Origin: Pseudoruegeria sp. HB172150
Lineage (GTDB): Bacteria; Pseudomonadota; Alphaproteobacteria; Rhodobacterales; Rhodobacteraceae
DNA length: 64,000 nucleotides
Direction: 5' to 3'
NCBI RefSeq assembly: GCF_013184805.1
Contig: NZ_JAATNG010000005.1
Coordinates: 186,001-250,000, forward strand
The notes under the pieces were generated by a model. That model searched no databases, was not told the DNA's origin, and saw only the letters and a list, made by a program, of their open reading frames with translations. Of this stretch, positions 9,883 to 39,817 are shown piece after piece; the stretch's first letter is position 1; the number at the start of each line of letters is the position of its first letter. The position numbers and the translations under genes were made by a program.

Positions 9883-9910
9883 ACGCGCCTCTGTTAAGCA
9901 ATCGTATGTC

Positions 9911-9939
9911 TGTTACGGACCGGTCGTGGGGAGCGATCA
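9911..9939 (-). promoter_or_regulatory. Candidate RpoE (ECF) promoter for the FAD/CFA operon
   Basis: On the minus strand the sequence is TGATCG, 18 nt, TAACA. The RpoE promoter reported for Rhodobacter is about TGATCC-N18-TAAGA. The -35 matches 5 of 6 and the -10 matches 4 of 5. The downstream distance to the ATG at 9882 is 28 bp. Confidence 0.6.
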
Positions 9940-9942
9940 AAA

Positions 9943-9968
9943 AAAGATCGGGCTGGCCTTCAGATCTT
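9943..9968 (-). terminator. Weak terminator at the end of chrR
   Basis: In the leftward transcript AAAGATC (9968-9962), 12 nt and GATCTTT form a 7-bp stem that runs into four more T residues. It overlaps the chrR stop codon and abuts the -35 of the next promoter, so it could partly insulate rpoE-chrR from the downstream operon. Confidence 0.35.
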
Positions 9969-11149: not shown

Positions 11150-11229
11150 GTGCGGTTCCCTCGTCTTTCGCAGGTGCGCCGCATGTTGCGGTTCCTGCAG
11201 ATGATGATCCACCGTTCCTAGCATGCCGG

Positions 11230-11258
11230 TTCTACGCTGGGCAAACGCGTGCGGATCA
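11230..11258 (-). promoter_or_regulatory. Candidate RpoE autoregulatory promoter for rpoE-chrR
   Basis: On the minus strand the sequence is TGATCC, 18 nt, TAGAA. The -35 is a perfect match to the reported RpoE consensus, and spacing equals that of the site before the FAD gene. The 5' leader to the chosen GTG start would be roughly 75 nt. Confidence 0.65.
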
Positions 11259-11310
11259 GAATTCGATGAGATTATTTGAGCCGGCTGCGCGGCTGCTACG
11301 TATCAGGTGC

Positions 11311-12078: not shown

Positions 12079-12809
12079 CCGTGATCGGGGGCAAGGCGTA
12101 CTGGCTGATCGGCGCCAGCGAGGGGATGGGGCGCGAAGTTGCAAAACTGCTCGCCTCGGATGGCGCGGAACTGATCCTGTCGGCGCGTAATCGGGAGCGC
12201 CTGCAGGAACTGCGGGACGAGCTTGGCATGGGCCGGGTGGTGCCGTTGGATGTGACCGATGCCGACTCGATTGCTGGCGCTGTCGACGAGATCGGCTTGC
12301 CCGATGCGCTGATCTACAATGCCGGCGCCTATTATCCGATGCCGACCGATGAGTGGGACAGCGCCAAGGCGCTGACAATGTGCGACGTAAACTTCATGGG
12401 CGCGATGCGGGTGCTGGGAGAGGTCGTGCCGAAGTTCGTGGAGCGAGGTTCGGGCGAGGTCACGCTGGTGGGTTCACTGGCCGCCTATCGCGGGTTGCCC
12501 AAGTCCATCGGCTACAGTGCCAGCAAGGCCGGGATCGCCAGTCTGGCGGAAACCATGAGACGGGATCTGAAAGGGTCGGGCGTGACGGTTCGGCTGGTCA
12601 ATCCGGGGTTCATCCGGACGCGGTTGACCGACAAGAACCAGTTCCGCATGCCGATGCTTATGGAGCCGGAGGACGCCGCCGAACGCGTTGTCGCGGCGTT
12701 GAAGTCGAGCCGGTTCCGTACCGATTTTCCGGCGCCGTTCTCGTGGCTAATGCGCGGCCTGCGCTGCGTGCCGGACTGGCTGTATTTTGCAGGCGGTGGG
12801 CGAGGCTGA
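12075..12809 (+). CDS. Short-chain dehydrogenase/reductase
   Basis: This 244-residue classical SDR has the cofactor loop IGASEGMGREVAKLL (a TG-x-x-x-GIG variant in which Thr is replaced by Gly), LSARN, YNAGAYYP and the active site LVGSLAAYRG...YSASKAG (Ser-Tyr-Lys). The PGFIRTRLTDKN segment follows. The substrate is unknown. The start ATG overlaps the DUF1365 stop (ATGA), so the two are co-expressed. An SDR is also a member of the singlet-oxygen gene set of Rhodobacter, so a role in processing a modified lipid or aldehyde is plausible. Confidence 0.88.
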   Translation: MTVIGGKAYWLIGASEGMGREVAKLLASDGAELILSARNRERLQELRDELGMGRVVPLDVTDADSIAGAVDEIGLPDALIYNAGAYYPMPTDEWDSAKALTMCDVNFMGAMRVLGEVVPKFVERGSGEVTLVGSLAAYRGLPKSIGYSASKAGIASLAETMRRDLKGSGVTVRLVNPGFIRTRLTDKNQFRMPMLMEPEDAAERVVAALKSSRFRTDFPAPFSWLMRGLRCVPDWLYFAGGGRG

Positions 12810-15044: not shown

Positions 15045-15815
15045 ATGCGTAACTTTAGGAATGCAATGATCGTATTTGCCTCGGCAACTATGATCGCTCC
15101 GATGGCAATGGCTGCCGGTCTCGGCGTCAAGGCTGATGTCAAGATTGGCGGCATCGAGGCCAATGTGGACGCCAAGGTGGGTGGCGGACGCGGTGTCAGC
15201 GCCAGTGCAGATGCCAAGGTCGGCGGCGGTGCCAGCGCCAGCGCTGATGCCAATGTCGGCGGCGGGGACATCAGTGCCGATGCCGATGTGAGCGTCGGCG
15301 GTGGCGGAAGCGGCGGCAGCGGTGGAGGAGGATCCGGCGGTGGCGGCAACGGCGGTGGTGGCAACGGCGGCGGTGGCAACGGCGGCGGTGGCTCAGGCGG
15401 TGGCGGCAACGGTGGTTCCGGTGGTGGCGGAGGTTCCGGCGGTGGCAATGGAGGAGGCGATTCCAACAGCAACTTCGCCGACGGCAGCAACCGTTCCGAC
15501 GGCAGCAACAGTTTTGGCAACGGCTCTGTTGTGCGGAACGCCGATGGCAACCGAGATACCGGGATCTCTGGAGCGCATGCATTCCTGGTTGGCATGCCGG
15601 TGCTGTCTCAGGACTACAAACTTCTCGGGATCGTCGACCGAATTCAATGGTCGGACGGCCGCAGCGCCGTGGTGCTGATCAAGGTGAACAACGGGCTTGG
15701 ATTGCGGGCGCGGCGGGCGATGGTGAAACTGAACTCGTCCACCATGCATGACGATCACATCCGGATCGGCCGGACCCGGCAGAGCTTTGTCGATTACGTT
15801 GCCAGAAGGTCGTAG
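15045..15815 (+). CDS. Secreted glycine-rich protein with PRC-barrel-like C-terminal domain
   Basis: This 256-residue protein has a Sec signal peptide (about residues 1-24, ending AMAMAA). Residues 26-84 form about five degenerate repeats of the type ADA-x-VGGG. Residues 85-145 are almost pure glycine with Ser and Asn, arranged as GGGGN/GGGGS units. An Asn/Ser-rich linker follows. The last 85 residues (GMPVLSQDYKLLGIVDRIQW, then SAVVLIKV) resemble a PRC-barrel fold. This suggests an extracellular or periplasmic elastic spacer with a globular end. AGGAG lies 7 nt before the ATG. It is next to TadE/TadG-like genes but has its own AT-rich promoter region. Confidence 0.75.
   Translation: MRNFRNAMIVFASATMIAPMAMAAGLGVKADVKIGGIEANVDAKVGGGRGVSASADAKVGGGASASADANVGGGDISADADVSVGGGGSGGSGGGGSGGGGNGGGGNGGGGNGGGGSGGGGNGGSGGGGGSGGGNGGGDSNSNFADGSNRSDGSNSFGNGSVVRNADGNRDTGISGAHAFLVGMPVLSQDYKLLGIVDRIQWSDGRSAVVLIKVNNGLGLRARRAMVKLNSSTMHDDHIRIGRTRQSFVDYVARRS
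15298..15470 (+). repeat. GGN-codon tandem repeat encoding poly-glycine tract
   Basis: Degenerate short-period repeats built on GGCGGTGGC and GGCAACGGC encode GGGGN/GGGGS units in frame. Such tracts vary in length by slippage. Confidence 0.8.
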
Positions 15816-15868: not shown

Positions 15869-16094
15869 CGCATTGCTTCCAGTCGCTTCGGAGCGGGTTT
15901 CAAAGGGAGATGATTCTGCATTGACCGGCGTATTGCATCCTCGGGCTGCTGCGAGATTGGGCAGTTGCCCGGCAAAACGGCCGGTACGGGCGGCCCAGGC
16001 CATGCCGGATGGCGAATTTCGGTGCAAAGGCTGTTCGAGGCCTTTCAGCGTGGTATCGTATTTTCGAACACTCGCTCGATAATCGGACATACAT

Positions 16095-16883
16095 ATGCCC
16101 TTCACACCGTGGTCGGACCTTCGGACGACCGACTTCGCGTCTCTTGATCGGGAGCGCTCGGTGGCCCTGCTGCCGGTCGGTGCGACCGAGCAGCACGGGC
16201 CGCATCTGCCACTGTCCACGGATACTGTTCTGGCCGAGGAAATGGCGAAGCTGTCGGGGGCGGCGGCGGAGCGGGCCGAGGTGTTGTTGCTGCCGGCCGT
16301 GGCGGTGGCGAAATCGGACGAGCATGTCGGTTTCGCCGGGACGCTGACGCTGGACGGGCCGACGCTGCTGGCCGTTCTGGAACAGATCGGCGCGTCGGTG
16401 GCGCGTGCCGGGGTCGGGCGGTTCGTCTGCCTGAACGCCCATGGCGGCAACGTGCCAGTGCTGCAACAACTGTGCCGCAGCCTGCGCCTGAAACACGACA
16501 TGCTGGCGGTGACGGCAGGGTGGATCGGCATGGGCTTTCCCGAAGGTGCGGTGCCGGAACGCGAGCGCGCCGAGGGAATACATGCGGGCCTGGTGGAGAC
16601 GGCGGCGATGCTGCATTTCCGGCCCGACCTGGTGGACATGTCGAAGGCGGAGCATTTCGTGCCGACCTCCTCGGCGGTGGCCGCGCGAAACGAGGTGCTG
16701 CGGATGATGGGATCCGTCACGATGGGATGGCGCAGCGAAGATCTGCACCCGGCCGGTGCTGCAGGCGATGCGCGTGGCGCGACCGCCGAGCTGGGCGCCC
16801 GGCTGGCTACGCATTCGGCGGCGCGGTTCGGGAAACTGTTGGACGAAGTGGCCGCAATGGCGCTGCCGGAGGTGTTTGCATGA
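16095..16883 (+). CDS. Creatininase-family amidohydrolase
   Basis: This 262-residue protein has the family metal-site motifs LLPVGATEQHGPHLPLSTD (residues 23-41, with Glu, His and Asp ligands) and LNAHGGN at about 115, plus IHAGLVETA near 160. Creatininase-family enzymes open cyclic amides or hydrolyse formamides with two metal ions (creatinine, formamidopyrimidines, inosose rings), so family membership alone does not give the substrate. It heads a tightly packed catabolic operon and overlaps the next gene by 4 nt (ATGA). No promoter motif can be named with confidence upstream. Confidence 0.9.
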   Translation: MPFTPWSDLRTTDFASLDRERSVALLPVGATEQHGPHLPLSTDTVLAEEMAKLSGAAAERAEVLLLPAVAVAKSDEHVGFAGTLTLDGPTLLAVLEQIGASVARAGVGRFVCLNAHGGNVPVLQQLCRSLRLKHDMLAVTAGWIGMGFPEGAVPERERAEGIHAGLVETAAMLHFRPDLVDMSKAEHFVPTSSAVAARNEVLRMMGSVTMGWRSEDLHPAGAAGDARGATAELGARLATHSAARFGKLLDEVAAMALPEVFA

Positions 16884-18169
16884 GTGACCGCAAGGTGATG
16901 TCGCACGGTGTGATTGCGGCGGACCTGGTGCTGCGGAACGCGCTGGTGCCGTCGGTGCTATGCCGCGAGATCGGTGGCGGGGCGATTGGCGAAGGTCTGG
17001 TCCTGACGGATATCGCGGTGCGGGACGGACATATCGTGGCCGCTGCGCCGAACCAGACGCTTGTGGCGGGCGAGGCGCGCGACCTTGGTGGGCGGATGGT
17101 GCTGCCCGGCTTCGTCGATATGCATGTGCACCTGGACAAGGCGTATACGGCTGCGCGGACCGGAGTGTCGCGGATCGGGCTGGCCGAGGCCGTGTCTCTG
17201 TCGATGGCAGATGCGCCGAACCGGACGCTGGAGGATCTTCTGGTCCGGATGGATCGGGCCATCCGCGCCGCGTACCGGCTGGGTACGGTGGCGATGCGCA
17301 CCCATCTGGACAGTATGGCGCCACCCGATGAGAGCCCGGCTTGGGCGGCACTACGGCGGTTGCAGGAAAAATGGCAGGGCCGGATGCGGTTGCAGCCGGT
17401 GGCGCTGATGCGGATCGAGCGGGCGGTGGACCGGGATTTCGCCGACCGCTGCCGACAGATCGCGGAGCGCGGTGGATTGGCCGGCGGGTACATCTCGGGC
17501 GAAGGTTGCGATCCGGCGATGGTGGACGCGTTTCTGACGCTGGCCGCCGATGCCGGGCTGGACGTGGATTTCCATGTCGATGAGACGCTGGATGCCGGGG
17601 CGCGCGGGATCGAGACGGTGCTCGACAGTGCCGAAAAGGTGCGGTTTCCCTGGCGCGTGACCCTGAGCCATTGCTGTTCGCTGGCGGCGATGGAGCAGGG
17701 GCGTGCTCTGGCCATCGCGGAACGGATCGCGGCTGCGCAGGCGCATGTGGTCAGCCTGCCGCTGACCAATGCCTACCTGATGGACCGGATGCCCGGAGAA
17801 AGCCCGCGGCGGCGCGGGATGACCATTGTGCAGGAGCTTTCGGCACTGGGCGTGCCGGTATGTTTCGCCTCGGACAACGTGCGGGATGCATTCTACCCCT
17901 ATGGCGCTTTCGACATGCTGGAGATCTTCCGGCAGGCGGTGATGACGTCACAGCTCGAGGCGGATGTGGAGCACTGGATCGCCTCGGTCGCGGCGCGGCC
18001 GTCGGAGACGATGCGGCTGGAGTCCGCCAGGACGATTGCGCCGGGGGTGCCGGCGGATCTGGTGATATTCGACGCGCGCGACTGGACCGACCTGCTGTCG
18101 CGCGCACATGAGGACCGGCAGGTGCTGCGCGCCGGGGTCGCTCTGGACGCGGAAGGAGAGGCGGCATGA
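16880..18169 (+). CDS. Cytosine-deaminase-like metal-dependent amidohydrolase
   Basis: This 429-residue amidohydrolase-superfamily enzyme has an N-terminal beta-sandwich segment, then LPGFVDMHVHLDKAYT (H-x-H metal ligands), FHVDETLD (His), LSHCCSLAAM (His) and CFASDNVRDAFYPYGAFDML (Asp). The last block and the H-x-x-x-x-H layout are those of CodA-type cytosine deaminases and related aminohydrolases of N-heterocycles. The true substrate could be a pyrimidine, imidazolinone or other cyclic amidine. ATGA overlaps with the genes on both sides point to coupled translation. The open frame extends far upstream, but homology begins only at this ATG. Confidence 0.88.
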   Translation: MSDRKVMSHGVIAADLVLRNALVPSVLCREIGGGAIGEGLVLTDIAVRDGHIVAAAPNQTLVAGEARDLGGRMVLPGFVDMHVHLDKAYTAARTGVSRIGLAEAVSLSMADAPNRTLEDLLVRMDRAIRAAYRLGTVAMRTHLDSMAPPDESPAWAALRRLQEKWQGRMRLQPVALMRIERAVDRDFADRCRQIAERGGLAGGYISGEGCDPAMVDAFLTLAADAGLDVDFHVDETLDAGARGIETVLDSAEKVRFPWRVTLSHCCSLAAMEQGRALAIAERIAAAQAHVVSLPLTNAYLMDRMPGESPRRRGMTIVQELSALGVPVCFASDNVRDAFYPYGAFDMLEIFRQAVMTSQLEADVEHWIASVAARPSETMRLESARTIAPGVPADLVIFDARDWTDLLSRAHEDRQVLRAGVALDAEGEAA

Positions 18170-19551
18170 ACCTCGACGCGTTCAAGGCGGTATTGGACGG
18201 CGTGGCGATGGATGAACGGCCCGCGGTGGTGCGGCAGAAGAGCCGAGATTTCTATTGGTATTCGCCGGTGCTGAAGCGACAGCTCGACGGGTTTACCGGC
18301 GATCTGGTGGTGTTGCCGACCAGCGAGGCCGAGGTGGCGCGGGTGCTGGCGGCGGCCTTTGCCCATGACGTGCCGGTGACTGTGCGGGGCGGCGGCACCG
18401 GGAATTACGGGCAGGCGATGCCTTTGCAGGGCGGCGTGGTGCTGGACATGTTGCAGGTGGCCGGGATCACCGAGATCGGCGAGACGCATGTGACGGCACG
18501 GGCCGGGACGCTGATCGAAGGGATCGAGCGCACGTTGCGGTCGCAGGGCAAGGAGATCCGCCTGTTCCCCTCGACCACGGCGACGGCGACCATCGGCGGG
18601 TTCATCGCGGGCGGTTCGAGCGGCGTGGGCGCGATCCGCTGGGGCGGGCTGCGCAACCCGGCGAACATCCGGCGGGTGCGGCTGGTAACAATGGAGGCGA
18701 AGCCGCGGGTGATCGACCTGACCGGCGACGACATCCCGAAGGCGGCCCATGCCTATGGTGTGAACGGGGTGATGACCGAGGTGGAACTGCCGGTCGATCC
18801 CTGTACCGACTGGGTCGACGTGATGGTGACGGTCGACGATTTTGCCGATGCGAACCTGCTGGCGATTTCGCTAGGCGAGGATGACGGCGTGCTGCTGCGG
18901 ATGCTTTCGACCTTCCAGCCGCCTATCCCGGAACTGTATTTCCAGCGTTACCGGGCCCATGCCGGAACCGGGCGTGCGGTGTTAGCACTGATGGTGGCCC
19001 GGGCGGACCTGCCCGCCTTGGAGGCGCGGGTAGCAGACTGGCCGGGGGCGGAGACCGCATTTCGGGCGGACGGCGCGGATGCGGTCACGCGCCTGCCCGC
19101 GCTGTACGAGATGGCGTGGAACCACACGACCTTGCGCGCGATGAAGGTCGATCCATCGCTGACCTACCTGCAGATGATGTTTCCGCGCGAGACCATGACG
19201 GAGACCATCGCGGCGCTGGGCGTGCGGTTCGGTGACGAGCTTATGCTGCATTTCGAATTCACGCGGTTTTCCGGAGTGGTGAGCCCGGTGTGTCTGCCGC
19301 TGGTGCGGTTCACCTCAGAGGACCGGCTGGAAGAGATCATCCGTATCCTCGAGACCGAGTATCCGGTGACCGTGTTCAACCCGCATCGTGTCACGCTGGA
19401 GGAAGGCGGCATGAAGCGAACCGATATCTCGCAGCTGGCTTTCAAGCGGCAGACCGATCCGAAGGGGTTGATGAACCCGGGCAAGATGATTGCCTGGACC
19501 GAACCCGACTGGACCCCTGCCAATGGCAGAAACTTCCTGTTTTCCGAATGA
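18166..19551 (+). CDS. FAD-linked oxidase (GlcD/PCMH type)
   Basis: This 461-residue flavoenzyme has a PCMH-type FAD-binding domain: VVLPTSEAEVARVLAAAFAH, then VTVRGGGTGNYGQAM, GTLIEG and TIGGFIAGGSSGVGAIRWGG. The C-terminal FAD-oxidase cap ends in PKGLMNPGKM. Relatives oxidise 2-hydroxy acids or amine/heterocycle intermediates. It is the third gene of the operon (4-nt overlap with the amidohydrolase). A redox step on a ring-opened product, or on the ring itself, is a reasonable role. The electron acceptor might be the quinone-reductase-like flavoprotein encoded next, which is inference. Confidence 0.88.
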   Translation: MNLDAFKAVLDGVAMDERPAVVRQKSRDFYWYSPVLKRQLDGFTGDLVVLPTSEAEVARVLAAAFAHDVPVTVRGGGTGNYGQAMPLQGGVVLDMLQVAGITEIGETHVTARAGTLIEGIERTLRSQGKEIRLFPSTTATATIGGFIAGGSSGVGAIRWGGLRNPANIRRVRLVTMEAKPRVIDLTGDDIPKAAHAYGVNGVMTEVELPVDPCTDWVDVMVTVDDFADANLLAISLGEDDGVLLRMLSTFQPPIPELYFQRYRAHAGTGRAVLALMVARADLPALEARVADWPGAETAFRADGADAVTRLPALYEMAWNHTTLRAMKVDPSLTYLQMMFPRETMTETIAALGVRFGDELMLHFEFTRFSGVVSPVCLPLVRFTSEDRLEEIIRILETEYPVTVFNPHRVTLEEGGMKRTDISQLAFKRQTDPKGLMNPGKMIAWTEPDWTPANGRNFLFSE

Positions 19552-19564
19552 GGCCGTTCACCCG

Positions 19565-20146
19565 ATGAAAGTACACGTCATCTATGCCCATCCGCAGGAA
19601 AACAGCCTGAACGCGCTGCTGCACAGGACCGTAGTGGAGGGGCTGACAGAAGCGGGGCACGAGGTGGATGACCTGGATCTGTATGCCGACCGTTTCGATC
19701 CGGTGCTGACGCGCGAGGACCGAGACATCTATCATGACGTGCCCGCAAACCGGGCCAAGGTCGAGCAATACATCAAGCGGCTCGAGTCCTGCGATGCGCT
19801 TGTACTGTGCCATCCCGTGTGGAATTTCGGCTGGCCGGCGATCCTAAAAGGCTATGTCGACCGGGTTTTCCTTCCCGACGTATCCTTCAAGCTGCGCGAT
19901 GGCGAGATGTCGCCGGGTCTGCAAAACATCCGGAAGTTGGCGACCGTGACGACCTATGGCTCTAAACGTTGGCGGGCATGGTTTCTGGGGGACGCACCGC
20001 GTAAGAATGCGACACGGTTCCTGCGGGTGATCTGCCATCCCCGGGTCAAGGTCAGTTACCACGCGCTCTATGACATGAACAATGTGACCCGCGCGGAGAC
20101 GGAGGCCTACGTGGCACGCGTGCGGCAGGCGATGCTGAAGTTTTGA
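19565..20146 (+). CDS. NAD(P)H quinone-reductase-like flavodoxin-fold protein
   Basis: This 193-residue protein has the flavodoxin_2 fold: KVHVIYAHPQENSLNALL at the N-terminus, DLYADRFDPVLTREDRD, then ALVLCHPVWNFGWPAILKGYVDRVF. These are the FMN/FAD-binding and dimer blocks of NAD(P)H dehydrogenase (quinone), KefF and MdaB relatives. It probably moves electrons between NAD(P)H and a quinone or flavin. The first ATG with family homology is at 19565, 13 bp after the FAD-oxidase stop; the frame open from 19490 overlaps the upstream gene and was not chosen. Confidence 0.88.
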   Translation: MKVHVIYAHPQENSLNALLHRTVVEGLTEAGHEVDDLDLYADRFDPVLTREDRDIYHDVPANRAKVEQYIKRLESCDALVLCHPVWNFGWPAILKGYVDRVFLPDVSFKLRDGEMSPGLQNIRKLATVTTYGSKRWRAWFLGDAPRKNATRFLRVICHPRVKVSYHALYDMNNVTRAETEAYVARVRQAMLKF

Positions 20147-20168
20147 CGCGTAACAGGAGTCCGAGTAG

Positions 20169-20939
20169 ATGAATGCACTTGTTGAACAGTCCGAACCGAG
20201 CGTCGAGATCGCGTTGCAGTTCGATGCCGTGTCGATGGAGTTTCCGGATGGAACCATCGCGCTGGACGAGGTGGACCTGACGGTCGAGCGGGGCGAGTTT
20301 GTTTCGGTTGTCGGGCCCTCGGGCTGCGGCAAGTCGACCCTGCTGAAACTCGCCTCGGGTCTGGAGACGCATACCGGCGGTGAGATCCACGTGGACCGGT
20401 CGCATCTGGGCTACACGTTCCAGGACGCGACGCTGATGCCGTGGCGGACGGTGCTGCCGAATGTCGAACTGCTGATGGAGCTGCGCGGGGTTCCCGCCGA
20501 GGAGCGCCGCCGCATAGCGATGGAGCAGATAGCGCTGGTGGGGCTGGAGGGCTTCGAGGACCATTACCCGAAACGGCTGTCAGGCGGAATGAAGATGCGC
20601 GCTTCGCTGGCGCGGTCGCTTGCGCTGGAACCCAACGTCTTTATGTTCGACGAGCCGTTCGGGGCGTTGGACGAGATCACCCGCGAACGGCTGAACGACG
20701 AGCTGATCGAACTGTATCTGCGCAAAGGGTTCACCGGCCTGTTCATTACCCACTCGATCCCAGAGGCGGTCTACCTGTCGAGCCGCGTTGTAGTAATGAG
20801 CCGCCGGCCCGGCCGCATCATCGCCGAGTACGACGTGCCCTTCGAATGGCCGCGTACGCCGGAGCTGCGGTACGACCCGGAATTCACTCGGCTGGCCGGA
20901 GAGATCTCGGTCGCTCTGCGCAAAGCGCTAGAAGGATAG
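20169..20939 (+). CDS. ABC importer ATP-binding protein (SsuB/TauB/ThiZ type)
   Basis: This 256-residue ABC ATPase has Walker A GPSGCGKSTLLKLASG, a Q-loop at FQDATLMPW, signature LSGGMKMRASLARSLAL, Walker B VFMFDEPFGALDE and the switch histidine in FITHSIPEAVYLS. The TLMPW block after the Q-loop is typical of the nitrate/sulfonate/taurine and pyrimidine-precursor import group. It energises the permease that follows 3 nt later. Confidence 0.95.
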   Translation: MNALVEQSEPSVEIALQFDAVSMEFPDGTIALDEVDLTVERGEFVSVVGPSGCGKSTLLKLASGLETHTGGEIHVDRSHLGYTFQDATLMPWRTVLPNVELLMELRGVPAEERRRIAMEQIALVGLEGFEDHYPKRLSGGMKMRASLARSLALEPNVFMFDEPFGALDEITRERLNDELIELYLRKGFTGLFITHSIPEAVYLSSRVVVMSRRPGRIIAEYDVPFEWPRTPELRYDPEFTRLAGEISVALRKALEG

Positions 20940-20942
20940 GCG

Positions 20943-21809
20943 ATGGCGCTGAAGACCCTGACACGAAGCGCGCGGACACAGACCTACAAGCCGGTTCCGG
21001 TCACGCCACCGCCGGGGCCGGTGAAGCGTTTCGTCTCGGCTGTGGTGCCACCGGTTATAATGGGACTGCTGCTGATCGGGCTTTATGCCTGGGTGCGATC
21101 GCAGCTGCCGCCGCACCGGCTCTTCCTGATGCCGTCGGCGCAGGGGCTGTGGGAGCAGGCCTTTTCCAAACCGGAGGTATTGCAGGAGCTGTGGGAACGA
21201 AGCCTTGTTACGATTTCCATCGCCGTATGCGGGCTGGCGGTATCGATACCGCTGGGTATGGCGATCGGCATTGTGATGTTCCGCTTCCACGTGATGGAGC
21301 GGGCGGTATTTCCCTACCTTGTGGCGCTGCAATCCATTCCGATCCTCGCGATCATCCCGCTGATCCAGAGCGCGCTGGGCTTCGGGTTCCTGCCGAAGGT
21401 CCTGATCGTGGCGCTCTTCACCTTCTTCGCGGTACCGACCACGCTGCTGCTTGGGTTGAAGAGCCAGGACCCCGGCATCCTGAACCTGTTCCGTCTGCAG
21501 GGCGCGGGATGGCGCAAGATGCTGTGGAAGGCGGGGCTGCCATCGGCCGCGCCGGCGCTGTTCGCCGGGTTCCGCATCTCGACCAGCATGGCGATCATCG
21601 GCGCGGTGACCTCGGAACTGTTCTTCCTCGCCGGCAAGGGCGGGCTCGGGCAGATGCTGATCAACGCCAAGACCGAGTTCAAGTACGAGCAGATGTATGC
21701 CGCGCTCATCGCCTCTTCGGCACTGTCGATCGGGATATTCCTGATCTTCACCTGGGTGGGCAACCTGCTGTTTTCCAGCTGGCACGAGTCGGCCAGCCGC
21801 CGGGGATGA
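20943..21809 (+). CDS. ABC importer permease
   Basis: This 288-residue inner-membrane protein has about six helices. The cytoplasmic EAA-like loop is present as WRKMLWKAGLPSAAPALFAG, and a C-terminal GLGQMLINAKTEFKYEQMYA segment is typical of SsuC/TauC-type permeases. It pairs with the ATPase three bases upstream and the binding protein 54 bp downstream. Confidence 0.93.
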   Translation: MALKTLTRSARTQTYKPVPVTPPPGPVKRFVSAVVPPVIMGLLLIGLYAWVRSQLPPHRLFLMPSAQGLWEQAFSKPEVLQELWERSLVTISIAVCGLAVSIPLGMAIGIVMFRFHVMERAVFPYLVALQSIPILAIIPLIQSALGFGFLPKVLIVALFTFFAVPTTLLLGLKSQDPGILNLFRLQGAGWRKMLWKAGLPSAAPALFAGFRISTSMAIIGAVTSELFFLAGKGGLGQMLINAKTEFKYEQMYAALIASSALSIGIFLIFTWVGNLLFSSWHESASRRG

Positions 21810-21863
21810 AAGGCCCCGTTCCTCTCCTCCACGAAACGAAACACGAAACAACAGGGAACTGAC

Positions 21864-23021
21864 ATGACGAAAGGACTGAACCGCGTACTGGCCGGGACGA
21901 CCGCGTTCCTGGCCGCGCATGCCGCAACTGCCGCTCCGGGCGACTTCGCCAAGGAAAACTACACCACGCCGCTGGCCGATGTGTGCCCGAGCCCGTTCTA
22001 CATCCAGAAGGACTGGCTGGCGCAGGCGGAGCATGGTGGGCTGTACCAGATGATCGGTGGCGGCGGCACGATGGAGTCGGGCCGCTATACCGGGCCGCTG
22101 GGGGCAACCGGGATTGACCTGGTGATCCTGGAGGGCGGCGGTAATATTGGGCTAGGTGACGGCGAGACCGCCTATTCGGCGTTGTTCAACGGCAACTCCA
22201 AGGCCGGGGTTGTGCCGCATCTGGGGTTCCAGGAGCTGGATAACGCCTTCATTTTTTCCAAGATGTTCCCGGTGGTTGGCGTCTTCGTACCCTTGGACAT
22301 AGCGCCCTCGGGGCTGATCTGGGACGAGGGAACCTATCCTGACGGCTTCCATTCGGTCGAGGACCTGAAGGCGTTCGGGGAATCCGGTGGCGGCATGATC
22401 TATGTCTCGACCATCACCCGGACCTTCGGACTGTATCTGGTGAATTCCGGCGTGCCGAAGGAGGCCTTCATCGAGGGTTATCGTGGCGACCTGGAGAATT
22501 TCGTCACACATAACGGCGAGTGGCTGAACCAGGGTTTCGTGACGACCGAGGTCTACAACCTGTCGCACGGGCTCAACTGGGAAAAGCCGGTGGATGCGGT
22601 GACGGTGAACGAACTGGGCTATCCGACGATCACCGGCATGGTCTCTGTCGCGGCGCCGCGCATGGAAGAGCTGGCGCCCTGTCTGGAAAAGATGGTGCCG
22701 ATCATGCAGCAGGCGGCGGTCGATTACATGAACGACCCGGCTGAGGTGAACCAGCTGATCTATGAGTTCAACGAGGGCGGATACGGCACTAGCTGGTGGA
22801 AGACATCGATGGAGCTGAACGAATTTTCGGCAAACGCGCAGAAGGAGCGCGGGATCGTCGGGAACGGCACCAACGATACGATCGGCGACTTCGACATGGA
22901 GCGCGTCGAGGAGATGTTCGGGATCGTGAAGCCGTGGCTGGACGAGCGGTCGAACCCCGACGTGGTGCCGGACGACGTGGTGACCAACCGGTTCATAGAC
23001 CCCACAATCGGTCTGGAGTGA
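21864..23021 (+). CDS. ABC importer periplasmic substrate-binding protein
   Basis: This 385-residue protein has a signal peptide (about 23 residues, ending HAATA-AP). The mature part resembles the NMT1/ThiY/SsuA class in size and context, but its ligand motifs are unfamiliar to me. It has notable Gly-rich turns (MIGGGGTMESGRY, LEGGGNIGLGDGE). The ligand is therefore unknown; the flanking ring-opening enzymes suggest a small N-heterocycle. The next gene, folD, starts within 10 bp of the stop. Confidence 0.88.
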   Translation: MTKGLNRVLAGTTAFLAAHAATAAPGDFAKENYTTPLADVCPSPFYIQKDWLAQAEHGGLYQMIGGGGTMESGRYTGPLGATGIDLVILEGGGNIGLGDGETAYSALFNGNSKAGVVPHLGFQELDNAFIFSKMFPVVGVFVPLDIAPSGLIWDEGTYPDGFHSVEDLKAFGESGGGMIYVSTITRTFGLYLVNSGVPKEAFIEGYRGDLENFVTHNGEWLNQGFVTTEVYNLSHGLNWEKPVDAVTVNELGYPTITGMVSVAAPRMEELAPCLEKMVPIMQQAAVDYMNDPAEVNQLIYEFNEGGYGTSWWKTSMELNEFSANAQKERGIVGNGTNDTIGDFDMERVEEMFGIVKPWLDERSNPDVVPDDVVTNRFIDPTIGLE

Positions 23022-23029
23022 TCCGGACA

Positions 23030-23890
23030 ATGGCGCCCGTTCTGCTGGACGGCGACGCCCTGGCTGCCAGCCTGCGCCGCGAGATGGCGCAGGAACTGGC
23101 GGCCGATGGCTTGCGCCCGCGGATGGCGACCGTGCTTGTCGGGGATGATCCGGCGAGCCGGTCGTATATCGGGCGCAAGCATTTCGATTGCGACGAGATC
23201 GGGATTGATGCCGATCTCGTCGCCTTGCCATCGGATATCGGACCGGAGCGGCTGATGGCCGAGGTGGCGTGTCTGAACGCGGATGCTTCGGTTGACGGGT
23301 TCTTCGTGCAGTTTCCGCTGCCGGACGGGTTTGGATACGACGAGTTGGCCGTGGCCGCCGCGATCGATCCGGAAAAGGATATCGACGGGCTGGCGCCGGT
23401 GAACCTGGGACGGCTGATGGCGGGGGCAGAAGGGCTGCTGCCCTGCACGCCTGCGGCGATCCTTGCGCTTTTGCGGGGCTATGACGTGCCGCTGGCGGGG
23501 CGGCACGTGGTGATCATAGGGCGCGGTCTGCTGGTGGGGCGGCCCCTGGTGATGCTGCTGTCGGCGCAAGGCGTGGATGCCACGGTGAGCCTGCTGAACA
23601 GCAGGACGCCGGATCTAGGAGCGTTTACGCGCGCCGCCGACGTGGTGATCGCGGCGGCGGGGGTCCCGGACCTTGTGACTGCAGGAATGCTGCGGCCGGG
23701 CGCGGCAGCAGTGGGTGTGGGTATCACCTATGACGATGCGGGGAACATGGTGTCGGACCTTGCAGGCGATGTCACCTCGGTCGCTGGACATGTCACGCCG
23801 CCGCACGGCTCTGTCGGGGCGCTGACGCGGGCGATGCTGCTGCGAAATCTTATCACCGCTGCGCGCAGGAGGAGAGCACGCAATGGATGA
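23030..23890 (+). CDS. folD: Methylenetetrahydrofolate dehydrogenase/cyclohydrolase
   Basis: This 286-residue protein carries the FolD catalytic set: Tyr46 and Lys50 in SYIGRK, Gln94 in FFVQFPLPDGF, the EKDIDGLAPVN block, PCTPAAI, the NADP loop IIGRGLLVGRPLVMLL and the C-terminal VAGHVTPPHGSVG near PGGVGPMT-type positions. It interconverts 5,10-methylene-, methenyl- and 10-formyl-THF in the cytoplasm. Being embedded in a catabolic operon rather than a housekeeping locus suggests it handles a one-carbon unit released from the substrate. A GTG start at 23018, overlapping the upstream stop (GTGA), is an alternative. It overlaps the IclR gene by 8 nt. Confidence 0.93.
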   Translation: MAPVLLDGDALAASLRREMAQELAADGLRPRMATVLVGDDPASRSYIGRKHFDCDEIGIDADLVALPSDIGPERLMAEVACLNADASVDGFFVQFPLPDGFGYDELAVAAAIDPEKDIDGLAPVNLGRLMAGAEGLLPCTPAAILALLRGYDVPLAGRHVVIIGRGLLVGRPLVMLLSAQGVDATVSLLNSRTPDLGAFTRAADVVIAAAGVPDLVTAGMLRPGAAAVGVGITYDDAGNMVSDLAGDVTSVAGHVTPPHGSVGALTRAMLLRNLITAARRRRARNG

Positions 23891-24665
23891 CAGCCAGGCG
23901 CTGTTCAAGGACGACAAGGAAATCTCGCTGACCTTCGCAAGGGGGCTCGATCTGATCGAGGCCTTCGCCGGGGCGGAGCGGCGCCTGTCGATTTCGGAAC
24001 TGTCGGCGAAGACCGGGTTCAACCGCGCGGTGACACGGCGGCTGATCCGAACGCTGGAAAAGAAGGGTTATGCCCGGTCGGACCGAGGGCAGTACGAGCT
24101 GACGCCGCACGTGCTGCGCCTGATCCGCGGGTTCATCGAGGGGCGCAGCCTTCCGCAGATCGTGAACCCGATTCTGCGGCGGCTGGCGGACCAGATCGGG
24201 GAATCGGTGTCATTCGCGATGCTTGACGAGGCCGAGGCGGTCTATGTCGCACACGCCTACCTGCCGTCGCGTTTTACGCTGAATATGGTGACGGTTGGAA
24301 CGCGGGCGCCACTGCTGCCGACGGCGGTGGGGCGTGTGATTCTGGCCTACCTGCCGGAGGTAGAGCGGGCGGCGATCATTGCGCGGCTGGCGCCGACTTC
24401 GCATACGCCGCAGACCGAGACCGATGTCGGGCGGTTGGAGAAGATTTTTCTGGAGTGCCAGCGGCAGGGGTACTGTCTGTCGGTCAGCGAATATGTCGAG
24501 GGTGTCGCGTCTCTGGCAGTGCCGGTTTTCGACGGGATGCGCAGCGTGACCGGGGCGATATCCATTATCTTTCCGACCGGCGGGCAGGATCCGGCGGAGT
24601 TCGCTGACCGGATTGCGCGGCAGATGCGGCAGGCGGCAGCGGACCTGGGAGGTGCACTGCAATGA
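23883..24665 (+). CDS. IclR-family transcriptional regulator
   Basis: This 260-residue protein has an N-terminal winged helix-turn-helix, ARGLDLIEAFAGAERRLSIS then TGFNRAVTRRLIRTLEKKGY, and a C-terminal effector domain of the PcaR/PcaU subgroup (VGTRAPLLPTAVGRVILAYL, SVSEYVEGVASLAVPVF). IclR proteins typically control the catabolic operon beside them and bind an aromatic or small-acid effector. It is co-transcribed between two folD-like genes with overlaps on both sides, so autoregulation of the whole operon is likely. Confidence 0.93.
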   Translation: MDDSQALFKDDKEISLTFARGLDLIEAFAGAERRLSISELSAKTGFNRAVTRRLIRTLEKKGYARSDRGQYELTPHVLRLIRGFIEGRSLPQIVNPILRRLADQIGESVSFAMLDEAEAVYVAHAYLPSRFTLNMVTVGTRAPLLPTAVGRVILAYLPEVERAAIIARLAPTSHTPQTETDVGRLEKIFLECQRQGYCLSVSEYVEGVASLAVPVFDGMRSVTGAISIIFPTGGQDPAEFADRIARQMRQAAADLGGALQ

Positions 24666-25564
24666 GTCGGACGGCAATCTTCACCGGGTATGAGCTTGCG
24701 GCGCGGCTGCTGGCGAGGACCCGGCGCGAGGTTGCTGAGTTGGGCCGGGCGCCGGTTGGCGTGACGCTGCACGACCCGGTGGATGTGGCGGCGGGTGCGT
24801 ACCTGAGGCGGCAAATGGCGATGGCTCATAAGGTCGGTGTGAGTTTGCGGTCGGAAGAGTATGCCATTGATCCCGAGGGACAAATACGCGCCTTGGCTGC
24901 GGTTCCAGGTGTGGATGCGGTTATGGCGCTGACGCCTTTGCCTCGGGCTCTGACGCCGGTCGAGGTTGCCAGACTGATCGGGCCGGAGAAGGATGCCGAC
25001 GGCCAGCACCCGTTACATGCGGGGGCGCTGCTGTTGGGCGATGGCGCGACGCGGCTGCCGCCGACGGCGCTGGCGGCGTTGCTATGTGCGCGGGAGATCC
25101 TTGGTGATCTGCGCGGTGCGGAGGTGGTGCTGGTGGGCGCGTCGCGTCTGATCGGGCGGCCATTGTCGATGCTGCTGGCAGATGCGGGGGCCACGGTGAC
25201 GCTGTGCCATGCAGAGACGCGCGACCTGGCGGCGCATACCCGCTGCGCCGACCTGATCGTGACGGCGGCGGGGGTGCCGGGGCTGATCGGCCGCGACCAT
25301 GTTGCTGAAGGCGGATTGGTGCTGGACCTTGCCGTCGTGGGCACCGGGGCCGGGCTGGTCGGGGACGCCGACCTGTCCGCGCTGGACGGGCACGCCGCCC
25401 TGATTTCCCACGTACCGGACGGGGTAGGCCCGGTCACCACCGCCTGTCTGATTTCCATAATCGCGGCCGCTGCCGGCTGCGCGCCCTTCTCTCCGGGCGA
25501 GGATGTTTGCCCGGGGTTCGAAGATCCTCCCAATGAAAAACGTCCAACAGGAGTCCTCCCATGA
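24662..25564 (+). CDS. Divergent FolD-like protein lacking catalytic Lys and Gln
   Basis: This 300-residue protein has the FolD architecture: AGAYLRRQ, ALTPLPRAL, GPEKDADGQHPLHAGAL, the Rossmann loop LVGASRLIGRPLSMLLADAG and a C-terminal ISHVPDGVGPVTTACL. Against the neighbouring folD, the catalytic Lys (Lys50 there) is Gln51, and the conserved Gln (Gln94 there) is Leu90. The Tyr and the KD-x-DG aspartate are kept. Without the Lys, normal cyclohydrolase/dehydrogenase chemistry should be lost. It may be a partner subunit, a sensor, or an enzyme for another folate adduct. A Pro/Gly-rich tail of about 25 residues follows. It overlaps genes on both sides by 4 nt. Confidence 0.85.
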   Translation: MSRTAIFTGYELAARLLARTRREVAELGRAPVGVTLHDPVDVAAGAYLRRQMAMAHKVGVSLRSEEYAIDPEGQIRALAAVPGVDAVMALTPLPRALTPVEVARLIGPEKDADGQHPLHAGALLLGDGATRLPPTALAALLCAREILGDLRGAEVVLVGASRLIGRPLSMLLADAGATVTLCHAETRDLAAHTRCADLIVTAAGVPGLIGRDHVAEGGLVLDLAVVGTGAGLVGDADLSALDGHAALISHVPDGVGPVTTACLISIIAAAAGCAPFSPGEDVCPGFEDPPNEKRPTGVLP

Positions 25565-26175
25565 AAAAGTCTGTAATATCCCTTGTGCTTACGGCAGCGA
25601 TGGTGCTGCCGGCCGCCGCCGCTGAAGTGCGCTCCGGCGTTACCTATGACGGCCCGATGGAACCTGAAGGGTCCGACCGCGCCGTGATGCAGGCGCTGAT
25701 GTTCGATATCGCCACCGCCTGGGCCGCCTGCGACACCGAGGCGATGGAAGGTGCGATCACCGACGACGTGCACTTCTCCTATCCGACCAGCGTGAAGGAA
25801 GGCCGCGAAGCGGTGATGGAAGACCTGGCGCTGTTTTGTGACAACGCGACGGATACCAGCATCTATTTTCCGAAGGATGCGTTCTATATCGACGTGGACA
25901 CCGGCCGCGTTGCCGCCGAGGTACAGTTCCGGACCTTCCAGCGTGGCAGCCGTCAAGTGGTGAACGACGTCTGGGTTGCGCATGTGGCGGACGGCAAGGT
26001 GAGCGTGATCAAAGAGTATCTCGACGGCCGGGTGAAGGACCTTCAGGCGCTGGGCGTGCTCACGCTTGAGGAGAGTCCGGAGGTGCTGACGCCATGGCCG
26101 CCGCGGACCGAAGAATGGGCCGAGTGCTTCCCAATCGTGAAGGCCGCGCCGATCAACGAGTGCCCGTCGAACTGA
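25561..26175 (+). CDS. Exported NTF2-like (SnoaL-type) protein
   Basis: This 204-residue protein has a signal peptide MKKSVISLVLTAAMVLPAAAA and then a cone-like NTF2 fold: MFDIATAWAACDTEAMEGAI, TDDVHFSYPTSVKEGREAVM, and a later strand VWVAHVADGKVSVIKEYLDG. NTF2-like domains bind small ligands or act as isomerases/dehydratases. Three or four cysteines could form disulfides in the periplasm. It is the last gene of the operon (ATGA overlap with the FolD-like gene), so it could bind or process the imported compound before uptake. Confidence 0.8.
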   Translation: MKKSVISLVLTAAMVLPAAAAEVRSGVTYDGPMEPEGSDRAVMQALMFDIATAWAACDTEAMEGAITDDVHFSYPTSVKEGREAVMEDLALFCDNATDTSIYFPKDAFYIDVDTGRVAAEVQFRTFQRGSRQVVNDVWVAHVADGKVSVIKEYLDGRVKDLQALGVLTLEESPEVLTPWPPRTEEWAECFPIVKAAPINECPSN

Positions 26176-26853
26176 TACCGGGCCGGCGTGGCGGCAGGTC
26201 TGCCGCTGCGCCGCAGTTCCAATGCGCAGGTGGCAGTGCGCAGCGATTGTCGCTGTGGGCTGAACGGGCCGGGAAAAATGGCGAAATCGTTGCGCATTTT
26301 TCGCCCTGCGTTGTTCCGGCTGGTTCCGGGCTATCGTGAGGTGGCCCGAACGGTTGAGGTGCGGATTGGCAAGCCCGCTTGTCGTTAAGGCGTTAACTAA
26401 ATCCTTGTTTGCAAAGGGCTGCGACTAACCGGACCCCCACCGTGACGTCGGGCATGATCCGCAAGTTCTGTTCGGGAAAATTCACAATCCTCGGTTGCCC
26501 CAACGTAAATTTTCCCGAAACCGAAACGACCTTCCCAAAACGTCAGGTCGACAGCGCCCGTGCTGTGGCGCGCAATGTATGCGGGTGTGCGACGTTCCGT
26601 TTCGATTCGGAGATTTACCAAGTCGCATGAATTACTTGCGCCGCTTCCTCGGGGGAACGGCCAAACACGGTCTGTAGACATGAACTTGAAGACTGCGTTC
26701 AGGGGTGGGGGCAGTAACGACGGCAATCGGCGCTTTCCTGGTTTTGCCGAACAGGTGAACTATGTAGCTTCTGGTTGTAATAGAGTGTTTGGCGCGGTCT
26801 TTTTGAAAGACCGCGGAGTGCCAAGACAAGATGCGGAACTGGAAAGGAAAAGG
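26176..26853. other. Long intergenic region before the kinase block
   Basis: This 678-bp spacer shows a small GCGGCAG/CTGCCGC hairpin at 26191-26206 after the operon end, a 12-bp perfect inverted repeat at 26471-26519, and no convincing ORF. The frame of the following kinase is open back to 26560, but that upstream part has no domain character and the good ribosome-binding site is at 26854. Confidence 0.6.
26471..26519. repeat. 12-bp perfect inverted repeat with 25-nt spacer
   Basis: TTCGGGAAAATT (26471-26482) and its exact reverse complement (26508-26519) flank a 25-nt spacer. It lies 334 bp before the sensor kinase start. It could be a small-RNA or leader hairpin or a bipartite regulator site. 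Confidence 0.7.
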
Positions 26854-29178
26854 ATGGCGTTTCTGACCGGACGGAAAGCTCCGATCAGGACCATCCGCGG
26901 CCGCATCATATTTCTGGCCTGTGGTCTGACACTGGTCACGACCTATTGGCTGGGCACCTTGATCTACGACAGGACCGAAGCGATCGCGCTGGATTCGACG
27001 ATCGAGGCGCTGCGCGGCGAGGCGCGGCTGGTGACAGAGCGCGCGACCAAATCGCTGGACCGCGTTTTGAATGATGTGGTCATGCTGAGCCTGCTGCCGG
27101 CTGTAGAGGGGATTGCCCGGGCCGAGCGCAGCAACGGCATTGATCCTGCCGACGGCTCTTCGCTGGTCGAGTGGAAGGGACGCATGCAGTCGATCTTTGC
27201 GTCGCTACTGGCCAACAGGGACGCCTATTTCCAGATCCGGTTTATCGACGCTTCGGCCGATGGCCGGGAGATCGTGCGCGTGGAACGGCGGGCCGGCGGC
27301 GTTGCGGTTGTTCGAGAAACGGAGCTCTCGGGCCATGTGCCGGATGCGTTCTTCCGGCCCGCGCGCGACCTGGAGGAAGGGCAAACCTACCTTTCTCGCG
27401 TCACCCTGCAGCATGAATTCGGGGTGCCCAATCCGAAGCGGATTCCGATCGTGAACGCCGTGCAGCCGGTTTTTTACGAGGGTACGTTGCTGGGCATGGT
27501 GGTTATCGGCGCGGAGTACGAAGACCTGCTGGCCCGCCCGGTCCTGGCGCCGCATGTCGAACACGACATTCTGGTCTTCAACAATGTCAGAGATGCTTTC
27601 GGGCTGCGTGTGGGACAATCCGGGATCGCCTTTCAATCCGGTACTCCGGAACAGGTGCTGGCGGGGTATACCGAGGCGAAGTCCTCTGCGCCGGGGTTCC
27701 AGGAGTTTTACCGGGTTGGCGACGATACGATCAGCTACGCTGTCGAGGCTCCGGTCGACGTAGCCGGCCCGTTCGGATCGCTGTTGCTGATCTTGTCCGA
27801 GGACTCGGCATCGGTTCTTGGCCCGGTTTATGCGCTGCGGAAAGAGACGCTTGTCCGGGCCGGGCTGATCCTGCTGGTCGCGCTTGTGCTTGGGGTACTG
27901 GCAGCCCGCCGGATCGCGCGGCCGTTGGACCAGTTGGCAGATCACGTGACCAGGTTGTCCGATTTCGGCGAACTCGATGCGCTGCCGGTCGATGCGTCGG
28001 GCGAAGTCGGTCAGATTGCGCGGTCTTACAAGAGCCTGGCGGAGAACCTGCGGACCTCTCAGAGCCGGGCGGAGGTGGTGCTGGACAACATCGCCGACGG
28101 TGTCATCTCGGTCACGACCGACGGGAAGATCCTTGGCGCAAATCCGGCGGCGGCTGAGATCTTTGGCCGGAGCCGCAGCGAACTGGAGTCGATTTCGTTG
28201 GCCGATGTTCTGCCGGATATCGTGCTGGACGAGGCGGGGCTTCCGGAGGGGGAATTGCGCAGCCTTGGCCGCGATGTCTATGCCATGCGGACTCGGTGGC
28301 AGGCAGCGGGTGGGGCGCTCGAGGATATCGAACTGACCATCGGCAAGCTGCAGGGCGAGCCGTGCGGCAGCCATCGGATCTGGGTGATCCGGAACATCAC
28401 TGAAGCGGTGCGGATCGAAAGGGCCAAGGAAGAATTCGTGTCGACTGTAAGCCACGAATTGCGGACGCCGCTATCGGTCGTCGTCGGGGCTCTTGGCCTG
28501 CTTCATCACACGGCCGGGCGGCAGAAGCTGGATGAAAAAGAGCGGAAGCTGCTGGAATCCGCATCGCGCAACGCGGATCGGTTGTCGCTGTTGATCAATG
28601 ACGTACTGGATTTCGAGAAGCTGTCTGCCGGGCAGATGGAGTTCGATTTCGATGAAGTCGAGGTTCGGGAGCTGGTGCGCGATGTCGTCAGCCAGCATCA
28701 GAGCCTAGCTGAAGAAAAGTCGCTTACGCTCAAACTGGATCTGGATCCGGAACCGGTGGTGTGCCGAATTGATCGTGCGCGCATGACACAGGCCCTGGTG
28801 AACCTACTTTCCAATGCGATAAAGTTCTCTCCGCAGAACGAGGCGATCCAATTCCAGGTGCATCGCGACGGCGATGGGCAAGTCCGTATCTCGGTTCGCG
28901 ATCATGGCCCGGGAATTTCCGAGAGTTTTCGCAAGCGGATCTTTCAGCGGTTCGCTCGTGCCGAGCGCAACGGGAAACCGGGGACGGGTCTGGGGCTGGC
29001 GATCACGAAGTCCATCGTCGAGGCGCATGACGGTGACGTTGGATTCGAGACTGAACTTGGAAAAGGCACCGTCTTTCACATTACGCTGCCACTCTATCAG
29101 CCGGCGGATGATTGCCCGGCCAGATCCGACGACTTTGGCCCGGGAGACACCGTGGCCGGAGTGCATGGGACGGTGTAA
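26854..29178 (+). CDS. Membrane sensor histidine kinase (dCache-like, HAMP, PAS, HisKA, HATPase)
   Basis: This protein has about 774 residues. Helix 1 is at about 15-36, followed by a large periplasmic sensory domain of about 300 residues with Cache-like strands, and helix 2 at about 335-353. The HAMP linker ends RRIARPLDQLADHV. A PAS domain (about 415-520) has VVLDNIADGVISVTTDGKIL. The phosphoacceptor His534 is in SHELRTPL. The ATPase domain contains NLLSNAIKFSP (about 650), DHGPGIS and GTGLGLAITKSIVEAH. No receiver domain is fused, so it must act on a separate regulator. The ATG at 26854 has GGAAAGGAAAAGG just upstream. It is followed by a second kinase and a receiver in the same direction. 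Confidence 0.92.
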   Translation: MAFLTGRKAPIRTIRGRIIFLACGLTLVTTYWLGTLIYDRTEAIALDSTIEALRGEARLVTERATKSLDRVLNDVVMLSLLPAVEGIARAERSNGIDPADGSSLVEWKGRMQSIFASLLANRDAYFQIRFIDASADGREIVRVERRAGGVAVVRETELSGHVPDAFFRPARDLEEGQTYLSRVTLQHEFGVPNPKRIPIVNAVQPVFYEGTLLGMVVIGAEYEDLLARPVLAPHVEHDILVFNNVRDAFGLRVGQSGIAFQSGTPEQVLAGYTEAKSSAPGFQEFYRVGDDTISYAVEAPVDVAGPFGSLLLILSEDSASVLGPVYALRKETLVRAGLILLVALVLGVLAARRIARPLDQLADHVTRLSDFGELDALPVDASGEVGQIARSYKSLAENLRTSQSRAEVVLDNIADGVISVTTDGKILGANPAAAEIFGRSRSELESISLADVLPDIVLDEAGLPEGELRSLGRDVYAMRTRWQAAGGALEDIELTIGKLQGEPCGSHRIWVIRNITEAVRIERAKEEFVSTVSHELRTPLSVVVGALGLLHHTAGRQKLDEKERKLLESASRNADRLSLLINDVLDFEKLSAGQMEFDFDEVEVRELVRDVVSQHQSLAEEKSLTLKLDLDPEPVVCRIDRARMTQALVNLLSNAIKFSPQNEAIQFQVHRDGDGQVRISVRDHGPGISESFRKRIFQRFARAERNGKPGTGLGLAITKSIVEAHDGDVGFETELGKGTVFHITLPLYQPADDCPARSDDFGPGDTVAGVHGTV

Positions 29179-29307
29179 CCCGGCTGCCGCAGTTCGCGCC
29201 GAAAATGTGACTACTTTTTACGACAAATTGCCTTGGTGGGACCACCAAATTGCCCGGACGCCATGGGAAAGACGGAGGCGAATTAAGAATACCGAGTAAT
29301 CAGGCCC

Positions 29308-39764: not shown

Positions 39765-39817
39765 GACACGTTGGCCAAGACTTTTTCTCTGTTCATCAAA
39801 TCCTCCCTTGCAGTGAG

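Follow-up and report, generated by a model that had tools for sequence, protein, structure and literature searches.

The breakdown of folate by bacteria is poorly charted, and the closest described counterpart of the locus analysed here is a flavoprotein represented by PDB entries 6v42/6v43, the first of which bears the title 'Crystal structure of the flavin oxygenase with cofactor bound involved in folate catabolism'. Enzymes of the isoxanthopterin-deaminase type are described in a passage of one report (PMC5270733). We report on an operon of eleven open reading frames (ORFs), all on the plus strand, at positions 16095-26175 of a 64-kb stretch of Pseudoruegeria sp. HB172150 DNA (the window; Table 1). 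It encodes a creatininase-family hydrolase (crn), a cytosine-deaminase-like amidohydrolase (cda), a flavin adenine dinucleotide (FAD) enzyme, a flavin reductase, an ATP-binding cassette (ABC) importer of three proteins, FolD1, an IclR regulator, FolD2 and an NTF2-like protein. An original prediction, made from the letters of the window, had placed eleven co-directional genes of these families here, which the ORF coordinates and Pfam and NCBIfam searches bear out. It had also known of no described pathway with this gene set; we indeed found none among the matches listed in the open PubMed Central literature, but the title of 6v42 shows that the core had already been recognised by others.

We think it likely that this is an IclR-controlled operon for the uptake and oxidative breakdown of folate or of a closely related, probably reduced, pteridine. 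The locus offers a transporter, a gene for a regulator together with a probable operator, the core enzyme set of many Alphaproteobacteria and two altered FolDs. Through it one can directly test what becomes of folate in the environment and how a one-carbon enzyme has been put to another use.

The enzyme core and its probable link to folate

In a sequence search of the PDB with the FAD protein of the window, 6v42/6v43, labelled there merely as 'FAD/FMN-containing dehydrogenase', came far ahead of the next entry (1e-12). The AlphaFold model of the protein (26 alignment rows, mean predicted local distance difference test score (pLDDT) 83.3, four short segments below 50) also found 6v42_A at rank 1 in a Foldseek search of the PDB, with a template-modelling (TM) score of 0.92 and 50% identity, so that both homology over the full length and fold place it in the 6v42 type. 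Because this closest solved relative is titled for folate catabolism, folate or a similar pteridine is the likely heterocycle, and the substrate, which the original prediction had called unknown, is less so than supposed. A second paralogue of the FAD family, on the opposite strand near the core cluster, was seen in three relatives (L012:11712-13148, L031:12977-14545 and L053:12958-14337); the L012 copy had no NCBIfam match at 1e-30.

A scan with the FAD protein of contigs from one genome per species gave at least 576 confirmed relatives, and recurrence was followed in the 80 best loci; the counts thus describe close relatives. Co-occurrence means a tblastn match of at least 60 bits (permease 55, IclR 150) anywhere in the stretch, on either strand. 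Matches were found for the FAD protein, the amidohydrolase and the permease in all 80, the ATPase in 79, the reductase in 76, the creatininase-family hydrolase in 75 and RidA in 67. Five core genes (creatininase-family, amidohydrolase, FAD, ATPase and permease) occur together in 75 of the 80, one or more being missing in L011 (an 8.75-kb contig), L028, L061, L078 and L080; in L035 the ABC genes lie apart from the core, on the other strand. The core is also found on annotated plasmids of Rhizobium, Klebsiella and Nitratireductor and, with no ATPase listed in tables that are incomplete, on plasmids of Pantoea and Leisingera. Since the set recurs in other genomes, it is more than a chance assembly. 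Uptake and hydrolytic and oxidative opening of an N-heterocycle, as in the original prediction, is supported.

Both hydrolases belong to broad families without reaching the cut-off of a named enzyme. The crn protein scores 234.5 bits against PF02633 (gathering threshold 31.3), which places it in the creatininase superfamily; it stays far under the creatininase cut-off itself (TIGR04448, 100 bits against 235), and its best NCBIfam model, MftE, gives 121 against a cut-off of 172. Its residues E32, H34, D43 and H116, which we take to be metal ligands, are invariant in 12 of 12 aligned rows. For the cda protein the best NCBIfam model is NF005759 'cytosine deaminase', at 389 bits narrowly under the cut-off of 403, and H82, H84, H232, E235, H264 and D332 are invariant in all 14 aligned rows. 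Creatinine or hydantoin breakdown and cytosine deaminase proper were dropped as candidates on account of these scores. Caffeine or trimethylurate breakdown and Rut-type uracil breakdown were dropped too, as the gene sets of these pathways do not fit.

The best NCBIfam models of the importer ATPase are of the taurine/nitrate type, under cut-off, and the binding protein, apparently exported to judge by eye from its N-terminus, matched no model in Pfam or NCBIfam, PF09084 included, and had no convincing relative in the PDB. It has in common with the NMT1/THI5-type binding proteins of related operons the motif DW.AQAEHGG.YQ; all four binding proteins that were searched from such clusters or from an adjoining operon match PF09084. 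Relatives of the window protein, 63-72% identical, occur in L001, L004-L007 and L084, and one plasmid record matches this type. A second NMT1/THI5 binding protein was seen divergent from the Klebsiella core (L082:870-4299), with a 2-oxoglutarate-Fe(II) oxygenase and an isoxanthopterin-deaminase-like amidohydrolase.

Deaminases of the pterin or 8-oxoguanine type lie near a few related clusters and speak for a folate-like substrate. They also raise the question of whether free pterins or oxidised purines (isoxanthopterin, pterin-6-carboxylate or 8-oxoguanine-like compounds) might be degraded instead of folate, the FolDs merely scavenging a carbon from ring opening. The neighbouring amidohydrolase of the Klebsiella cluster is a homologue of 2paj (E 2.3e-201), presumably an isoxanthopterin deaminase, and has tblastn matches in 5 of the 80 loci, that in L023 being weaker; in the other four (L032, L061, L078 and L080) the protein scores above the NCBIfam cut-off for 8-oxoguanine deaminase. 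NMT1/THI5 binding proteins, which are of the pyrimidine type in some known cases, would fit as well. We nevertheless regard this explanation as unlikely, as the presence of such deaminases beside the cluster is confirmed for no more than 4 of the 80 loci and one plasmid, no formate-tetrahydrofolate ligase family was matched among the operon proteins, and the title of 6v42 names folate.

The FolD pair

The unusual part of the operon is its two FolDs, for which the roles that we infer come from residue patterns. The Lys of YxxxK and the Gln of VQLPLP are catalytic in FolD. Both FolD domains are recognised in FolD1 and FolD2, the catalytic domain of FolD2 below its Pfam cut-off. We aligned six copies of each with four annotated plasmid FolDs. 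All four of these have the Lys and the Gln together with intact KDVDG, PGGVGPMT and DxG motifs, the Rhodococcus protein reading LQHPVP around the Gln. FolD1 of the window keeps YxxxK, VQxPLP and KDxDG, and the Lys, the Gln and the Asp are present in each of the six FolD1 copies; its PGGVGPMT loop has become HGSVGALT in the window and [HR]GSVGA[LV]T throughout, with GVG in place of DxG in every copy. FolD2 of the window reads YLRRQ for YxxxK and ALTPLP for VQLPLP, losing the Lys and the Gln and keeping KDxDG; its six copies have Gln or Leu for the Lys and Leu for the Gln. They retain the KDxDG Asp residues and have a PDGVGP[VL]T loop, DxG having become DxA or DxS. Alignments to solved FolDs (2c2x for FolD1) agree with this residue table.

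Conservation of the FolDs and the hydrolases with the transporter, which the original prediction had made a test of its reading, has two answers: the hydrolases and the FAD enzyme keep company with it in 75 of the 80 loci, and the FolD pair was seen in 5 plus the window, so that the core does not need it. The six clusters are those of the window, L001 and L004-L007, of which L004 and L007 come from strains of one species. This scarcity would suit bystanders, that is, decaying or housekeeping copies. Yet in each of the six clusters the place of FolD1 is after the binding protein and that of FolD2 after iclR (iclR-folD2 runs divergent from the core in five and in line with it in the window), the FolDs of the window are 47-62% identical to those of the other loci, within the range of the other operon genes, and the same motifs are lost in every copy, all of which makes decay or housekeeping very improbable. 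Among plasmid records FolD2 had 279 matches, all under 60% identity, the best listed at 42%.

The original prediction had an N-methylated substrate whose one-carbon unit is captured on folate. In that case an N-heterocycle other than folate would be degraded, formaldehyde freed and its carbon recovered by the FolD pair on the tetrahydrofolate of the cell; on Paracoccus and Rhizobium plasmids FolD genes do adjoin sarcosine oxidase genes, and FolD accompanies oxidases that release one-carbon units. The two sarcosine-oxidase-linked FolDs, however, keep the motifs that the window FolDs have lost, no recognised N-demethylase family is present among the operon proteins (the reaction of the FAD enzyme being a prediction from homology), and the nearest solved relative of that enzyme is titled for folate catabolism. 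Nor was any methyltransferase, formate-tetrahydrofolate ligase, PurU or formiminotransferase family matched among the operon proteins. We therefore find recovery of formaldehyde carbon quite unlikely, and this part of the prediction unsupported. Most simply, the FolDs act on the folate that is consumed, which reverses the earlier logic: folate would be the food and not the helper.

Mutation of the Lys in the human FolD-type enzyme reportedly abolishes the cyclohydrolase and not the dehydrogenase, which suggests a split of the two activities between FolD2 and FolD1. A more specific reading is then possible, if short of probable: two diverged FolDs with complementary motif losses would have been drawn from one-carbon metabolism into the destruction of folate. 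Tetrahydrofolate would be the food; FolD2 would act on it as a dehydrogenase devoid of cyclohydrolase activity, and the hydrolysis would fall to FolD1. The IclR regulon to which they belong would take in the pterin half of folate and, as it appears from relatives, that of p-aminobenzoate there.

The IclR regulator and an operator-like element

An operator-like element lies directly upstream of crn. In its longer form the pattern has one match in the window (16065) at up to 3 mismatches, and none in 100 shuffles. The regions upstream of crn in the IclR-type loci carry CGAAC-N4-G-N-TCGATAA, in a diverged form in L004 and L007; without mismatch, this pattern was found in 9 of 89 loci (L001-L008 and L084), which are those with a related IclR gene (8 of the 80 loci by matches of 150 bits or more, plus L084). 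The element thus stands before the operon and co-occurs with the regulator gene, as in an IclR regulon, and the IclR protein presumably binds to it.

A weight matrix was built from 11 training sites, among them the window site (score 41.0), sites before the binding-protein gene (L003) and sites before the NTF2-like gene (L004, L007). Leave-one-out scores of 30-43 flatter the matrix, because the sites were picked by pattern and two of them (L004, L007) are identical; the fair test lies in untrained sites and background. Nothing in the 1.61 Mb of other loci reaches 18, the highest score there being 17.2. Untrained sites of at least 18 stand before the ureidoglycolate-lyase/hydantoinase/iclR genes in L001, L002, L003, L008 and L084, before the NTF2-like gene in L005 and before crn in L004 (19.8), the crn site of L007 scoring only 16.9. 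Before RidA such a site was found in L001 only, one of five loci (L003, L004, L007 and L084 having none), and no site was found by the matrix at the NTF2-like gene of L006.

Two loci link the element to a further set of genes. At L003:15125-19907 and L084:18297-23101 a Rieske oxygenase gene faces an operon for a ferredoxin, a dioxygenase-type ferredoxin reductase and a glutamine-synthetase-like ligase (the last two below cut-offs), and untrained sites of at least 18 lie between the Rieske gene and the facing ferredoxin gene, two in L003 and one in L084. Among solved structures the Rieske protein comes closest to other proteins with a Rieske domain, one of them a putative phthalate 4,5-dioxygenase. 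Pairs of Rieske and glutamine-synthetase-like genes are known from aniline-type degradation, and these are a possible route for the p-aminobenzoate half of folate. The hydantoinase/ureidoglycolate-lyase and Rieske operons of such relatives, where the copies of the element are weaker, could serve the two halves of the molecule.

Clade structure and proposed route

In a tree of 31 FAD proteins covering 25 of the 80 loci (L007 is not in it), the window protein falls in a clade of nine rows (support 100/100) with L001-L006, L008 and Nitratireductor OM-1 (L084). The accompanying genes form two groups. Set A, with both FolDs and the NTF2-like gene, is found in the window and L004-L007, and set B (a DadA-like oxidoreductase, hydantoinase A/B and ureidoglycolate lyase) in L002, L003, L008 and L084; L001 (N. 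alexandrii) has both FolDs and set B, with no NTF2-like match. The sequence of L003 breaks off within the binding-protein gene, and those of L002 and L008 stop short of it.

Our proposal is that the ABC importer would bring in folate or a related pteridine, the cda protein would take the 2-amino group off the pterin ring, oxygenation of the ring would be the work of the FAD enzyme with electrons from the flavin reductase, and the creatininase-family hydrolase would open the resulting amide. Later steps would fall, depending on the genome, to the hydantoinase/ureidoglycolate-lyase/DadA-type enzymes or to the FolD/NTF2 set. The target of the FolD pair may be the folate substrate itself: FolD2 would be a dehydrogenase, and FolD1, its C-terminal loop altered, a hydrolytic partner. 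Between them they would strip away or re-route the one-carbon bridge that tetrahydrofolates carry, either ahead of the breakdown of the ring or in its course.

Several observations weigh against folate as the substrate or against parts of this route. The link to folate rests on the title that the depositors gave to 6v42, an entry for which no paper was found. The clade of the window FAD protein is set apart from that of 6v42 by a stem of 0.76, so that the two may not have the same substrate, although the clades are told apart by only 5 fixed differences. No recognised p-aminobenzoylglutamate enzyme is present in the operon, and RidA, hydantoinase, ureidoglycolate lyase and the DadA-like gene have no match within the 64-kb window. 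The FolDs were not seen in 75 of the 80 loci, of which L002, L003 and L008 end near the place of FolD1. Finally, the AlphaFold model of the binding protein (pLDDT 41.8) is too poor for a structure search.

Gene organisation and neighbouring genes

Table 1. Features of the operon and its upstream element, numbered within the window.
Feature	Position	Strand	Basis or remark
Operator-like element, presumed IclR site	16060..16088	+	CGAACACTCGCTCGATAATCGG at 16065-16086, directly upstream of the operon
Creatininase-family hydrolase (crn)	16095..16883	+	PF02633 E 1.5e-69
Cytosine-deaminase-like amidohydrolase (cda), proposed pteridine 2-amino deaminase	16880..18169	+	Amidohydro_3
FAD-dependent oxygenase/dehydrogenase, VAO-type fold (fad)	18166..19551	+	FAD_binding_4; 6v42_A E 2.5e-149
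Flavodoxin_2 NAD(P)H-dependent flavin/quinone reductase, proposed electron donor	19565..20146	+	PF02525 E 1.1e-32
ABC importer ATPase	20169..20939	+	PF00005
ABC importer permease (one, BPD type)	20943..21809	+	PF00528 E 2.7e-22
Substrate-binding protein, divergent NMT1/THI5-like	21864..23021	+	Motif in common with PF09084 proteins of related operons
FolD1	23030..23890	+	PF02882/PF00763; alternative start GTG 23018
IclR-family regulator	23883..24665	+	PF01614 E 5.8e-33 and HTH_IclR
FolD2	24662..25564	+	PF02882 E 3.8e-36; PF00763 28.7 bits, under cut-off 32.8
SnoaL/NTF2-like protein, apparently exported	25561..26175	+	PF12680 (SnoaL_2) 31.2 bits, cut-off 27

Overlaps of 4 nt, said in the original prediction to join most of the genes, occur at 4 of the 10 junctions (crn/cda, cda/fad, iclR/folD2 and folD2/ntf2), so that claim was too strong. 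Of the remaining junctions, one is an overlap of 8 nt and five are gaps of 3-54 nt; one of these gaps turns into an overlap if FolD1 starts at its alternative GTG. A scan of the window for promoters and terminators gave nothing above shuffles, and tRNA was the sole Rfam match at gathering thresholds. The NTF2-like protein, apparently exported from a reading of its N-terminus by eye, has gene matches in 4 of the 80 loci and none in plasmid records.

Upstream of the operon (15045-15815) lies a gene for a protein with a long Gly/Ser/Asn repeat and a signal-like start, and directly downstream (26560-30975) two successive ORFs resemble sensor histidine kinases as read from their letters; none of these was counted as an operon member. 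Further off, at 7446-12809, genes for a cyclopropane-synthase-like methyltransferase, an amine-oxidase-like flavoprotein, a ChrR-like cupin, DUF1365 and a short-chain dehydrogenase presumably resemble the gene sets for furan fatty acids that are linked to ChrR in relatives of Rhodobacter. On the minus strand at 38922-43155, genes for Amidohydro_2, an aldose epimerase, an SMP-30 lactonase and an aldolase of the 2-keto-3-deoxy-6-phosphogluconate type, with one plus-strand ORF among them, suggest a sugar-acid catabolic cluster.

Comparison with known systems

The window FAD enzyme resembles 6v42/6v43 over its whole length, and rhizobial proteins about 61-67% identical to 6v42 sit within the same core gene set. 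Unlike the 6v42 type, the window has its FAD protein in a separate clade, a binding protein of its own type, an IclR and not a LysR regulator, the FolD pair and the NTF2-like gene. Plasmids of R. johnstonii 3841 (pRL12), Klebsiella and Pantoea carry creatininase-family, amidohydrolase, FAD oxidoreductase and ABC importer genes as in the window, with no ATPase listed for Pantoea. These rhizobial and enterobacterial clusters, unlike the window, carry RidA and list no FolD; the binding proteins of R. johnstonii and Klebsiella are PF09084, and in Klebsiella and Pantoea a PDR/VanB-type reductase replaces the flavodoxin-type one. The molybdenum hydroxylase genes paoABC beside the R. johnstonii cluster were matched in 3 of the 80 loci plus L081 (some loci may end before them), and we did not count them as part of the cluster.

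In comparison with the bifunctional FolD (methylenetetrahydrofolate dehydrogenase/cyclohydrolase), FolD2 is without the Lys, the Gln and the Gly of DxG, and FolD1 without the PGGVGPMT loop and the Asp of DxG. The clusters of Nitratireductor OM-1, Aquamicrobium and Chelativorans differ from the window in their DadA-like oxidoreductase, hydantoinase A/B and ureidoglycolate lyase and have no FolD2 beside iclR; the absence of FolD1 is shown in OM-1 only, because the other contigs or loci end first. They have in common with the window the same type of IclR, the same operator and, where it is visible (L003, L084), the same family of binding protein.

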